49,466 nucleotides of DNA from Clostridia bacterium (lineage in GTDB: Bacteria; Bacillota; Clostridia; TANB77; CAG-465). Shown in pieces: positions 41,965 through 46,060 of this stretch. The stretch covers positions 1 to 49,466 of the forward strand of contig JAFXHJ010000002.1 of NCBI GenBank assembly GCA_017536445.1, given 5' to 3'. Below the pieces are notes generated by a model. It was not told the DNA's origin, did no database searches, and saw only the letters and a program-made list of their open reading frames with translations. The position numbers were made by a program, and so were the translations under genes. Each line of letters begins with the position of its first letter. Positions within the stretch are counted from its first letter, which is position 1.

Positions 41965-43047
41965 TTGATAAGAAAAAGGGTAGATAAAAAATACAAGTTC
42001 GTAAGTGTTTTTGATACAAGTAGCGGAGCCTATGTAAGAAGTGGAATTATAAAAGATGGCAAAGATACTGGTGAAGATCCATTTATGGCATCTTTTCCGC
42101 ATTTAATAGATATAGGAATTATGGGACATTGTATCCACGGTAAAACAGGATTATGCAGTAAAGCAGGAATTGAGTGTTATCAAAGTGGACAACATATACA
42201 CGAAGATAATATGACTGTGGAAAACTTCAAAAAGATAATAGAGCAATGTAAAGATAAGGTTGATCAAGTTGCACTAGGTGGTCGTGGAGATCCAGACCAG
42301 CACGAAAACTTTGAAGAAATACTAAAGCTTTGCAGGGAAAATAACATAGTACCAAATTATACAACTTCAGGTTTAGGATTAACCAAAGATAAAATAGAGA
42401 TAAGTAAAAAATATTGTGGTGCTGTCGCTGTAAGTTGGTACAGAAGTAAATATACGTTAGATGCTATAAACAATCTATTAGAAGCAGGTATAAAAACCAA
42501 TATACACTATGTAATATCTAATAGAACAATAGATGAAGCAATAGAAAGATTAGAAAATAATGACTTCCCAAATGTAAATGCAGTTATCTTTTTACTTCAC
42601 AAACCCGCTGGACAAGGTGCTAAAGGAAATGTACTTAGGCTTGATGATGAAAGAGTAACAAAATTTTATAAGTTAGTTCAAAATAACAATTATAAATTTG
42701 GTGTTGGAATAGATACATGTAATTTTCCAGCAATCGTAACATTTAATAATGAAAAAGAAATAGACTTTGATTCAATAGATACTTGTGAAGGTGCAAGATA
42801 TAGCTGCTATATTGGAAACGATTTAATAATGACTCCGTGCAGTTTTGATGTAAAGAAAAAATATGGAATAGATTTAAATAATAATACAATAGAACAAGGT
42901 TGGGAAAGCAAACAGTTTGAGGAATTTAGAAGTATATTTAAAAATGCATGCCCTAAGTGTAATTATCAAAAATTATGTTTAGGTGGGTGCCCACTATATA
43001 AAGAAATTGTATTGTGTAAAAAAAGGGTGAATGAATATGATATTTAA
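41965..43047 (+). CDS. Radical-SAM-like protein with SPASM-type C-terminus and unusual cysteine spacing
   Basis: This 360-aa protein has FPHLIDIGIMGHC then C at intervals of seven and six residues (CIHGKTGLCSKAGIEC, near 60-75), followed by YQSG. The usual CxxxCxxC is expanded, but DQVALGGRGDPDQHENFEEIL (a GGxGDP SAM-binding-like element) and an alternating beta/alpha pattern follow as in radical SAM barrels. The C-terminal region holds CYIGNDLIMTPC, CPKCNYQKLCLGGCPLYKEIVLC, the pattern of SPASM auxiliary iron-sulfur clusters. Such enzymes modify peptides or proteins. The start is TTG after GAGGGG. The substrate is unknown. The next gene starts inside its last codons. Confidence 0.8.
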   Translation: MIRKRVDKKYKFVSVFDTSSGAYVRSGIIKDGKDTGEDPFMASFPHLIDIGIMGHCIHGKTGLCSKAGIECYQSGQHIHEDNMTVENFKKIIEQCKDKVDQVALGGRGDPDQHENFEEILKLCRENNIVPNYTTSGLGLTKDKIEISKKYCGAVAVSWYRSKYTLDAINNLLEAGIKTNIHYVISNRTIDEAIERLENNDFPNVNAVIFLLHKPAGQGAKGNVLRLDDERVTKFYKLVQNNNYKFGVGIDTCNFPAIVTFNNEKEIDFDSIDTCEGARYSCYIGNDLIMTPCSFDVKKKYGIDLNNNTIEQGWESKQFEEFRSIFKNACPKCNYQKLCLGGCPLYKEIVLCKKRVNEYDI

Positions 43048-46000
43048 CGGAAAAACAACTGAGGAAGCCATAAATAATGGCTTAAAAGCATTTAATATAC
43101 CAAGAGAATTTGTAGAAATTAAAGAACTTGGACAAATGTATACGCCAAATGGTATAGAATATTGTGTGGATATTTCTTTTAATATGAAAACGACAAATAA
43201 CAGTGCAAGCAATACACTTTCACAAAATGAAGAAAATAATGACAAAGCTAGTGAATTAAAAGAAGTAAAACAACAGGATAAAAATGTATATTTAAACTTG
43301 AAAGATACTATTAAAGAATTCATAATAGAACTAGAACAAACGCACAAGGCATCAAAGAATACAATCGAATCATATGAGCGAGATATGCGTCAGTTTTTGG
43401 ATTATGTAGATTTGAAGAAAGAAAATTATATAGAATATACCAAAAAAGATGTTGAATCATATCTAGAATTTTTAGAACAGCTTGGGAAAAAAGAAGCGTC
43501 TCGAGCAAGGGCAGTTGCAACTCTTAAGAAATTCTATAGTTTTTTATTAAATAAAAATATAATTACAGATATTAGTATTATAAATATGAAATCTATACAT
43601 GTAGAAAAAAAGGATAATAGCGAATCAAAATCAGCTACAAATATTAAAATATTAAAATCATTTAATGCGAAATATAGTAGCAGTGATTCCTTAAAAATAT
43701 GTAGGGATAAAGCACTTCTAGAAGTGCTAGGTAAGTTAGAACTAAAACCTACAGAAATAGTTACATTAAAAGTTGGGGATTTTAATTTTGCAACAAAAAG
43801 ATTGAATGTTGGGGGAAAACTATATGAACTAGATGAAGAATGTGCAGAGGCGATAGAAAAATATATTAATGATGCAAGAAAGTATTTGGCATCAAATCAG
43901 GATGAAACTACATTGTTTTTGAATACAACTGGCGAAGCTATGACAAGACAAGGATTTTGGAAGATAGTAAAATTCTATGCTGAAGATGTAGATGCTTCAG
44001 AGGTGGATTATATCGCAGAAGAAGAAATAAAAGGTAACAACAATGGAATTATAATATCATCAACAACAAGTTCATCAGGACAATTAGATTTGTTTGGTAT
44101 TGCAGAAATGCCTAAAGTAGAAAAAGTAAACGAAAAAGCTAAAGATGCATTTAGAGCTTTTAAAGATGAAAAGACACTTTTTGAAGTTCTGTCAGATGAA
44201 AAGTTAAGCTGTTCAGAGATGAGAGAATATATACTGGCAATTTCAACAAGCGAAAATATAAATGACTACGATTTGAATTCAAATTTAACTCCGTTGATAT
44301 ATGCATATATGTCGGGAAAAAAAGAGTTAATATCTGATCTTATAGAAGTAGGTGCTGATATAAACCTACCAGACAAATCTACATTATTAACATTATTACA
44401 TATTTCAGCAGCAAATGGTGATGCGGATTTAGTAGAGAAATTAATTTTAAGTGGGGCAAACGTAAATGCAGAGTCTAAATTAAAAATGACACCAATTATG
44501 TGCGCTTTGGCTAAAATAATTAAGGATGATGAAGAACAAAAAGAACTATCTGAAATAGATATAACAGAACAATCTAATAAAAAGATATTAGAAATACTTA
44601 TTAAAAATGGAGCGGATTTAACAATAAAAATGCCAAAATCTGAAAAAACAATTGCAGATTTAATGGAAAATCTTAATATAAACACAGATTTTAATAACAA
44701 CTTAGATACAATAGAAAATTCTGTTAATGAAACAGTTGAATCAGAACAGGAAGTAGAAGTTAAGACTGAGGAAGAGGAAGAAGCTCCGCCTAAAACACAA
44801 GTGTTCTTAAAATTAAAAGGAAAAGATTTATACAAGGTGCTAGAATTAGAAGTAGTAGATAACAGTTTTACACTGCAACGCACTATAGAAAAAGCTTTAG
44901 AAGATGAAGATGGAAATATAAATGAAGATATAACATTTTTAGCTAAGGATAAAATAGATATTGAATATGCAGACTTGTATAGAACTATAAATTCAATATG
45001 TAAGGAATTACCTGGCATAGAAATATATGCAACTTATACAGATATAGACTTCGATCCGTTCTATTTTATGTTTTATTCAAAACCATATTCTACTGAGTTT
45101 ACAGAAGGATACATAGAGCCAACAACTGCAATGGACTTTAACGAATTATCTGAAGAAGACTTTATAAATTATGTAATAAATAACAATAGAAATATAAAGA
45201 GCAAATTAAACAGCGAAGAATTGGAAATGCTAGAAAATGCAATAAATGATAATGCATTTCTAAATAATTATACCGGAGTGTATAACAAAGAATTGTTATT
45301 AGAAATCTGTATTTTTAATGAATGGAATTTCAACGATATAGCAGAAAGCGTAAGAGCAGACAAGAAGTTTGTGTTAGATTTCATAAAAAGAGCAAGTTGC
45401 ATGGTAAGAATTCTAGAGTATTTACCAATAAATTTAAGTGTAGATAGAGAAATATTAAAGCAATTATTCTTAAAAAATGGTAGCGAATTAGAGAATGCAG
45501 ACAAGATTACACAATGGGATCAAAGTTTAGTATATTATGCTTGTAAAAATAGAGGTGGGGCTTTTGAATATGCACATCCAATGTTAAAGAAGGACAAAGA
45601 TTATATTTACGAATTAAGTAAAACAAGTAGTGTTTTTGAGTATGCAGATGATTCTTTGAAATCAGATTATGACTATGTGTATAAATTGCTAGAGGTTGAT
45701 CCTTATGCGATACAATATGCAAGTGACGAACTTAGAGATAATGATACGTTAGCTAAAAGGGCAATTTCAAAAGAGCCAAGTACATTATGGTGCGTATCAG
45801 ATAGGTTAAGAGATGATGAAGATACTGTAATATATGCATGCTTATTAGATATATCTGCGTTAGAATGTGCGAGCGAAAGACTTCAAAATGATAAAGAGTT
45901 TATAGAACTTATAGAAAAAATGACAGGGAAAAAATTTGTTGTAGAAGAAAATGAGGAAATGAACAAATTAGCAGAACATATGGCTAAATCTACTAAAAAA

Positions 46001-46060
46001 GGTGAAGAAGCATTAGAGTCACTAAGAGAGCTTATGAAAAAAATGGGAGTTGGAGATTAA
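43037..46060 (+). CDS. Multi-domain fusion: Jag-N, degenerate Xer recombinase, ankyrin and DUF4116-like repeats
   Basis: This 1007-aa protein starts at ATG 43037 (an in-frame ATG at 43031 touches the AAAGGGTGA site). Domains in order: Jag-N-like (about 1-45, FNGKTTEEAINNGLKAFNI); tyrosine-recombinase core-binding domain (about 88-184, TIESYERDMRQFLDYVDL); a recombinase-like catalytic segment (about 205-318, CRDKALLEVL..., FLNTTGEAMTRQGFWKIVK) in which the G-L-R site reads L-E-L-K and no H..R or catalytic Tyr follows; ankyrin-like repeats (about 405-548, LISDLIEVGADINLPDKST, KLILSGANVNAES); a linker; and DUF4116-like repeats (about 778-965). Inactive as recombinase. The role is unknown, probably a binding scaffold. 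Confidence 0.75.
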   Translation: MIFNGKTTEEAINNGLKAFNIPREFVEIKELGQMYTPNGIEYCVDISFNMKTTNNSASNTLSQNEENNDKASELKEVKQQDKNVYLNLKDTIKEFIIELEQTHKASKNTIESYERDMRQFLDYVDLKKENYIEYTKKDVESYLEFLEQLGKKEASRARAVATLKKFYSFLLNKNIITDISIINMKSIHVEKKDNSESKSATNIKILKSFNAKYSSSDSLKICRDKALLEVLGKLELKPTEIVTLKVGDFNFATKRLNVGGKLYELDEECAEAIEKYINDARKYLASNQDETTLFLNTTGEAMTRQGFWKIVKFYAEDVDASEVDYIAEEEIKGNNNGIIISSTTSSSGQLDLFGIAEMPKVEKVNEKAKDAFRAFKDEKTLFEVLSDEKLSCSEMREYILAISTSENINDYDLNSNLTPLIYAYMSGKKELISDLIEVGADINLPDKSTLLTLLHISAANGDADLVEKLILSGANVNAESKLKMTPIMCALAKIIKDDEEQKELSEIDITEQSNKKILEILIKNGADLTIKMPKSEKTIADLMENLNINTDFNNNLDTIENSVNETVESEQEVEVKTEEEEEAPPKTQVFLKLKGKDLYKVLELEVVDNSFTLQRTIEKALEDEDGNINEDITFLAKDKIDIEYADLYRTINSICKELPGIEIYATYTDIDFDPFYFMFYSKPYSTEFTEGYIEPTTAMDFNELSEEDFINYVINNNRNIKSKLNSEELEMLENAINDNAFLNNYTGVYNKELLLEICIFNEWNFNDIAESVRADKKFVLDFIKRASCMVRILEYLPINLSVDREILKQLFLKNGSELENADKITQWDQSLVYYACKNRGGAFEYAHPMLKKDKDYIYELSKTSSVFEYADDSLKSDYDYVYKLLEVDPYAIQYASDELRDNDTLAKRAISKEPSTLWCVSDRLRDDEDTVIYACLLDISALECASERLQNDKEFIELIEKMTGKKFVVEENEEMNKLAEHMAKSTKKGEEALESLRELMKKMGVGD

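Follow-up and report, generated by a model that had tools for sequence, protein, structure and literature searches.

SuiB, SkfB, CteB and anSME are peptide-modifying enzymes. Dead recombinases are already known as phage repressors, and in the case of MrpR/YopR of SPbeta a dead tyrosine recombinase acts as a DNA-binding protein (PMC10516654). In bacteria, QL(S/D)LF is the consensus for binding to the beta clamp, with QLDLF reported as the strongest-binding pentapeptide (PMC11139829), and QLDLF has been employed to strengthen Pol III (PMC4703070). Here we describe a locus that can be compared with all of these. It lies on contig JAFXHJ010000002.1 of the Clostridia bacterium assembly GCA_017536445.1, of which positions 1 to 49,466 were analyzed (hereafter the window), and it encodes at 43037-46060 (forward strand) a 1007-aa fusion protein with Jag_N-like, XerD-like, ankyrin and DUF4116 parts, downstream of genes for a radical S-adenosylmethionine (SAM) enzyme and for a small protein with a serine-rich N-terminal tag. 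Judged from its sequence, the fusion is best read as a non-catalytic adaptor tethered to the replication clamp.

The original prediction had reported a single 1007-aa frame at 43037-46060 that overlaps the upstream radical-SAM-like gene by 11 bases (43037-43047). The coordinates are exact, the overlap is correct and no internal stop was found. A ribosome site, AAGGGTG, is present at normal spacing from the start at 43037, and an alternative in-frame ATG lies 6 bases upstream at 43031. The frame comprises 1009 codons at 29% GC (guanine plus cytosine), far beyond chance expectation. Because the codon bias is uniform, supporting the frame in 16/16 windows along the gene, and because GC per codon position is similar across all segments, we consider the gene to be one coding unit. 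The host, which we take to be a gut bacterium, is represented by a 1.3 Mb assembly in 21 contigs, and its relatives are uncultured Clostridia.

All four of the domain types that had been proposed for this frame hold in profile searches of its segments, where family assignments were Pfam matches above curated cut-offs (NCBIfam was used for the XerD placement). The Jag_N-like N-terminal domain (43037..43186, residues 1-50) holds only barely, with a marginal match to PF14804 at 25.5 bits against a cut-off of 25 (residues 3-28); it was modelled as strand-helix-strand-strand with a predicted local distance difference test score (pLDDT) of 74-83. The XerD-like core-binding domain and first half of the catalytic domain (43295..44011, residues 87-325) match Phage_int_SAM_1 (PF02899; 51.6 bits, cut-off 22.3, residues 92-173), which indicates that the SAM-like core-binding domain is present, and Phage_integrase (30.9 bits, cut-off 27.1, residues 220-319). 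A disordered, serine-rich linker (44012..44170, residues 326-378) separates this part from ankyrin repeats (44171..44626, residues about 379-530), which match PF00023 and PF12796 above cut-off (Ank, 44.3 bits against 21.1) and whose top PDB sequence matches are ankyrin/DARPin chains. A PDB structural match at residues 378-525 (Z 7.1) was rejected as within noise for helical parts. Further downstream are an alpha/beta part that had no family match in the Pfam scan and a low-confidence model (44792..45196, residues about 586-720) and eight stretches of DUF4116 helical repeats (45254..45922, residues about 740-962; PF13475, 110.2 bits, cut-off 24.9). The helical repeat pattern is also seen in the AlphaFold model (pLDDT 75-88 at residues 851-960, with a mean of 65 over the whole protein), and DUF4116 was modelled as an alpha-solenoid in a fold-prediction study.

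The core of the fusion is a XerD paralogue that has been stripped of half its catalytic domain and of all the catalytic elements tested. Its nearest NCBIfam family is XerD (TIGR02225, residues 94-320), at 128.6 bits compared with an equivalog cut-off of 329.6, which is not reached, and the match stops at profile position 229 of 290. Catalytic residues were checked by alignment to E. coli XerD (1A0P) and to the XerD of the host genome. Both comparisons confirm the predicted absence of the first catalytic Arg, the HxxR box and the Tyr, and extend it to the Lys hairpin and the second His. The first Arg is replaced by Lys (LELKPTEIVTL, compared with GIRVTELISL), the hairpin that carries the catalytic Lys is deleted in both alignments, residues 316-348 contain neither His nor Arg, so that the HxxR box is missing, and the segment that would hold the second His and the Tyr nucleophile is replaced by the disordered linker. 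The Xer-type core-binding fold that had been proposed is recovered by structure prediction, with a pLDDT of about 95 for most of residues 88-318, a Z score of 14.6 to XerD 1A0P and one of about 14 to XerH. The segment is 35% identical to the host XerD. In the phylogenetic tree it groups with the XerD proteins of related Clostridia, within their clade, on a branch of length 4.61, compared to a median of 0.094 (about 49 times the median), although the exact placement is unsure on such a long branch. XerD is the probable ancestor of this part. Given the intact frame and the length of this branch, the fusion looks old and divergent rather than artefactual.

No full-length relative was found in 56 near-relative genomes, in 398 genomes of the phylum (E 1e-40), in a GTDB peptide-pattern scan of 84,980 species genomes, a scan of limited sensitivity, or in the viral contigs of IMG/VR (pattern scan); the genome sets partly overlap. 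Candidates from the two scans and from whole-genome searches were only XerD or DUF4116 pieces. When the C-terminal 420 residues were searched against 287 genomes of the order, DUF4116 repeats were retrieved from 196, mostly as proteins of ~180 aa, and none of the larger DUF4116 proteins was seen joined to Xer, ankyrin or Jag_N domains. The fusion is an orphan with a one-of-a-kind architecture among the searched genomes. This agrees with the claim that the architecture is non-standard, but the original prediction had also named absence of the fusion from all relatives as a point against itself, and the same fusion was indeed found nowhere else in these searches. To us this absence does not refute the prediction, since the gene is an unbroken frame and its Xer part sits on a branch some 49-fold the median length.

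The linker that replaces the lost catalytic half is the least confidently modelled part of the protein (pLDDT mostly 22-48) and is predicted to be disordered. Within it, the sequence SSSGQLDLFG contains a consensus beta-clamp-binding pentapeptide, QLDLF (44081..44095, residues 349-353). Based on composition, 0.0012 occurrences are expected in this protein, and a search of the fetched frames of 250 residues or more, approximately 398,000 residues in total, found the pentapeptide in no other protein. The PolC of the host ends in SSQVSLFDEF, a clamp-type motif. By its sequence, the fusion probably docks onto the DNA-replication clamp.

The gene immediately upstream (41965..43047, forward strand; TTG start, strong ribosome site) had been described as radical-SAM-like. 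Both its sequence profile and its model support this description, and on these grounds it is a genuine radical-SAM enzyme, probably of the SPASM type. PF04055 matches at 33 bits (cut-off 29.5), and the model (pLDDT 91.5) is closest to SuiB (5v1s, Z 26.2 over 318 residues), followed by SkfB, CteB and anSME. One structure prediction left out two plasmid rows. The SPASM profile scores 17.4 bits, below its cut-off of 21.5, while the C-terminal cysteines are largely conserved in the family and the fold matches SPASM enzymes. The SAM-cluster motif is CX7CX6C (window 42130-42177); across the family alignment (A4) the spacing ranges from CX3CX2C to CX7CX6C, with the first and last Cys invariant. Relatives occur in 2 other genomes of the 287 in the order, in 4 further genomes of the class, in 27 viral contigs and on Alphaproteobacteria plasmids, and the host genome has one close copy. 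Identity reaches 58% with copies on viral contigs compared with 39-41% with copies from the family; this closer match to viral copies suggests horizontal transfer of the enzyme gene.

Enzymes of this family are commonly accompanied by tag proteins. By automatic count, 28 of 37 loci, with the window among them, have close to the enzyme gene, and on its strand, a gene whose product starts like MKxRxDFVTNSSS[ST]S[FY]. A tag protein with a different start, seen by eye at locus L193, is additional to this count, and several of the enzyme loci without a tag protein are cut contigs. A single viral contig holds eight tag proteins in a row. The 53 distinct tag proteins fall into 19 unrelated C-terminal groups, yet the tag residues N, S, S and S are invariant (consensus MKxRxDFVTNSSSSSF), and carriers occur in Clostridia, on Alphaproteobacteria plasmids and on predicted phage contigs. 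With a similar tag pattern, 94 tags (copies included) were found in 49 enzyme loci compared with 0 in 155 other loci (1.44 Mb); most of these control loci come from related Clostridia, and they were not chosen at random. In the window the tag protein (40079..40519, forward strand, 146 aa, N-terminal tag MKYRTGFVTNSSSSS) is the sole one found in the host genome and a probable substrate of the radical-SAM enzyme. The window has the enzyme and tag pair, with a linked small substrate-like gene whose product carries the shared N-terminal region. This protein matched no named Pfam or NCBIfam family; phrog_7397, of unknown function, matches a few other tag proteins. Neither the gene at 40079 nor its conserved pairing with the enzyme was part of the original prediction.

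Other tag proteins are encoded at L155 9871-10263 (reverse strand), L156 7856-8269, L162 9899-12230, L165 9738-13224 and L192 10057-11490. Among the partners at other loci are trypsin-like proteins and NACHT/STAND NTPases, of which one has a SMEK domain. On two alphaproteobacterial plasmids (L190 1566-6002 and L191 1577-6032) a gene row encodes a SMEK-domain protein, then a small protein with the tag, then the radical-SAM enzyme, and in L190 SMEK is joined to a NACHT-type NTPase. These plasmid rows are likely a conflict-system version of the enzyme and tag pair. In two Clostridia (L156 3443-9303 and L194 8736-14735) the row consists of metallo-beta-lactamase-like, trypsin-like, about 140-aa, tag and radical-SAM genes, the metallo-beta-lactamase-like Pfam match having been tested in L156 only. 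T4-like phages of Klebsiella and relatives have a distant member of the enzyme family with about 28% identity (Klebsiella phage KP15, 3884-5086), and no tag protein was seen in the nearby 9 kb.

The motif was not found described as a protein tag in the open-access papers that were searched, and within that set the enzyme and tag look like an undescribed tag-and-maturase system. A broader proposal is that the system is widespread, that the radical-SAM/SPASM enzyme modifies the MKxRxDFVTNSSSSSF tag on unrelated proteins of bacterial conflict islands and large phages, and that it is coupled here to the replication fork by a dead Xer protein with a clamp motif. Taken as a whole, we regard this proposal as speculative and rather unlikely. 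If true, this would be a new kind of protein modification, with a transferable serine tag at the N-terminus that accompanies a radical-SAM enzyme in unrelated bacteria and in predicted phages.

In the window, the genes starting at 39687, 40079, 40535, 41965 and 43037 follow one another in the same direction, either 2-15 bases apart or with the 11-base overlap, and have strong ribosome sites. This tight row, which runs through 46060, is predicted to be an operon. Its probable first gene, based on frame and spacing, encodes a 129-aa protein (39687..40076, forward strand) and ends 2 bases before the tag gene; its RNase_T match is not significant (E=0.025). Between the tag and enzyme genes is a HIRAN-domain protein (40535..41962, forward strand; PF08797, 31.6 bits, cut-off 24.7), for which no full relative was found in 275 genomes of the order. 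The HIRAN domain of human HLTF binds replication forks (PMC4666394). The protein has one weak DUF4116-like stretch (19.4 bits, below the cut-off of 24.9), and a homology to residues 586-720 of the fusion that was suspected by eye is not significant (E about 5, with E 0.02 for the DUF4116-like stretch in the same comparison). Upstream, the island contains the defence candidate PDC-M33A/B/C (35672-39200), whose A subunit is encoded by two neighbouring frames (35672-36448 and 36460-37578), together with genes for a SNF2 helicase and a C5 methylase. Downstream, a fragment at 46459-46845 matches the end of DUF2779 (59.5 bits), apparently from a decayed exonuclease-like gene, and further along (L150 15120-19182; contig C8 55119-59181) frames resemble, by eye, a SLATT membrane protein, a CD-NTase and a type I methylase.

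As an explanation of the whole locus we tentatively prefer, at slightly less than even odds, that the fusion is a real, non-enzymatic, clamp-tethered adaptor inside the predicted tag/radical-SAM operon. Its QLDLF linker would be the clamp tether and its Jag_N/Xer part a possible contact to nucleic acid; a partner protein would be kept close to the replication fork by the ankyrin and DUF4116 repeats. The operon could serve in defence or conflict: the radical-SAM enzyme would mature the tag protein, which the fusion and the HIRAN protein may sense or position at replicating DNA. Like the original prediction, we infer a role as a DNA-associated scaffold, an idea that gains support from the perfect beta-clamp motif in the disordered linker and from the precedent of MrpR/YopR (PMC10516654). 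Several points weigh against the adaptor. The QLDLF match was spotted post hoc, AlphaFold models residues 586-720 and the ankyrin repeats with low confidence, and no homologue of the whole protein was found against which to test the architecture by conservation. Moreover, by BLAST, the 36 other enzyme loci have no fusion-like, HIRAN or PDC-M33 gene. The fusion is therefore not part of the conserved enzyme and tag pair, and it is its place in the gene order of a shared putative operon that suggests a role in the system.

Two other readings are each improbable but deserve weight. The fusion may be a transcriptional repressor of the island, similar to MrpR/YopR, that kept the fold for sequence-specific DNA binding and receives a protein signal through its ankyrin and DUF4116 repeats. 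The core-binding domain is intact and confidently modelled, and YopR and SroF structures (8bj6, 8bpz, 9rd5 and 9rgl) are among its structural matches with Z scores of 10-11.8. However, MrpR retains the whole catalytic domain including K169 and Y304, of which Y304 matters for DNA binding (PMC10516654), whereas the fusion is missing the second half, and its gene is the last of the row. With a similarly low probability, the fusion is a decaying or neutral chimera, its domains joined through mobile-element recombination in a defence island and without a selected function as a whole. The failure to find relatives, the strong degeneration of the XerD part and the orphan status of the HIRAN neighbor fit such a history; 1007 stop-free codons with native bias throughout and a XerD part that folds confidently in the model speak against it, and a perfect QLDLF is unexpected under decay.

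We think it less probable still that the fusion serves the radical-SAM enzyme as substrate or partner, perhaps through the serine-rich linker ISSTTSSSGQLDLF, rather than serving the replication machinery. The two genes overlap and are probably translationally coupled, and the serine-rich stretch immediately precedes QLDLF, but the conserved MKxRxDFVTNSSS tag is absent from the N-terminus of the fusion, and one gene of this row already codes for a tag protein. A draft-assembly artefact that joined unrelated genes, as might be suspected from a 21-contig assembly and the lack of a second copy, is very unlikely given the in-frame codon bias and the very long Xer branch, since several junctions would all need to preserve frame, the segments do not differ in their GC at each codon position, and with just 35% identity the Xer segment cannot be the host XerD gene wrongly joined.

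Compared with described systems, the fusion is closest in sequence to XerD, from which it differs in scoring far below the family cut-off and in the loss of all tested catalytic elements. With the MrpR/YopR (SPbeta) and SroF (phi3T) repressors it shares a tyrosine-recombinase fold minus recombinase activity (for MrpR, PMC10516654), but MrpR keeps its catalytic domain at full length and lacks Jag_N, ankyrin and DUF4116 parts, whereas the fusion ends its recombinase part before the second His and Tyr. The Jag_N domain is common to the fusion and the RNA-binding protein Jag/KhpB, although the Pfam scan of the fusion gave no KH or R3H match. DUF4116 repeat proteins are common in this bacterial order, and none of those examined match the Xer, ankyrin or Jag_N parts. 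A truncated dead recombinase with an ideal clamp-binding peptide and two kinds of protein-binding repeats would, if the reading is true, be a different reuse of the fold. The enzyme has the same fold as SuiB, SkfB, CteB and anSME over 279-318 residues and, similarly, a small substrate-like protein encoded alongside. It differs from SuiB-type maturases in its SAM-cluster spacing, usually CX3CX2C in the latter, and its family differs from all four in that the serine tag is carried at the N-terminus of diverse, sometimes large proteins.

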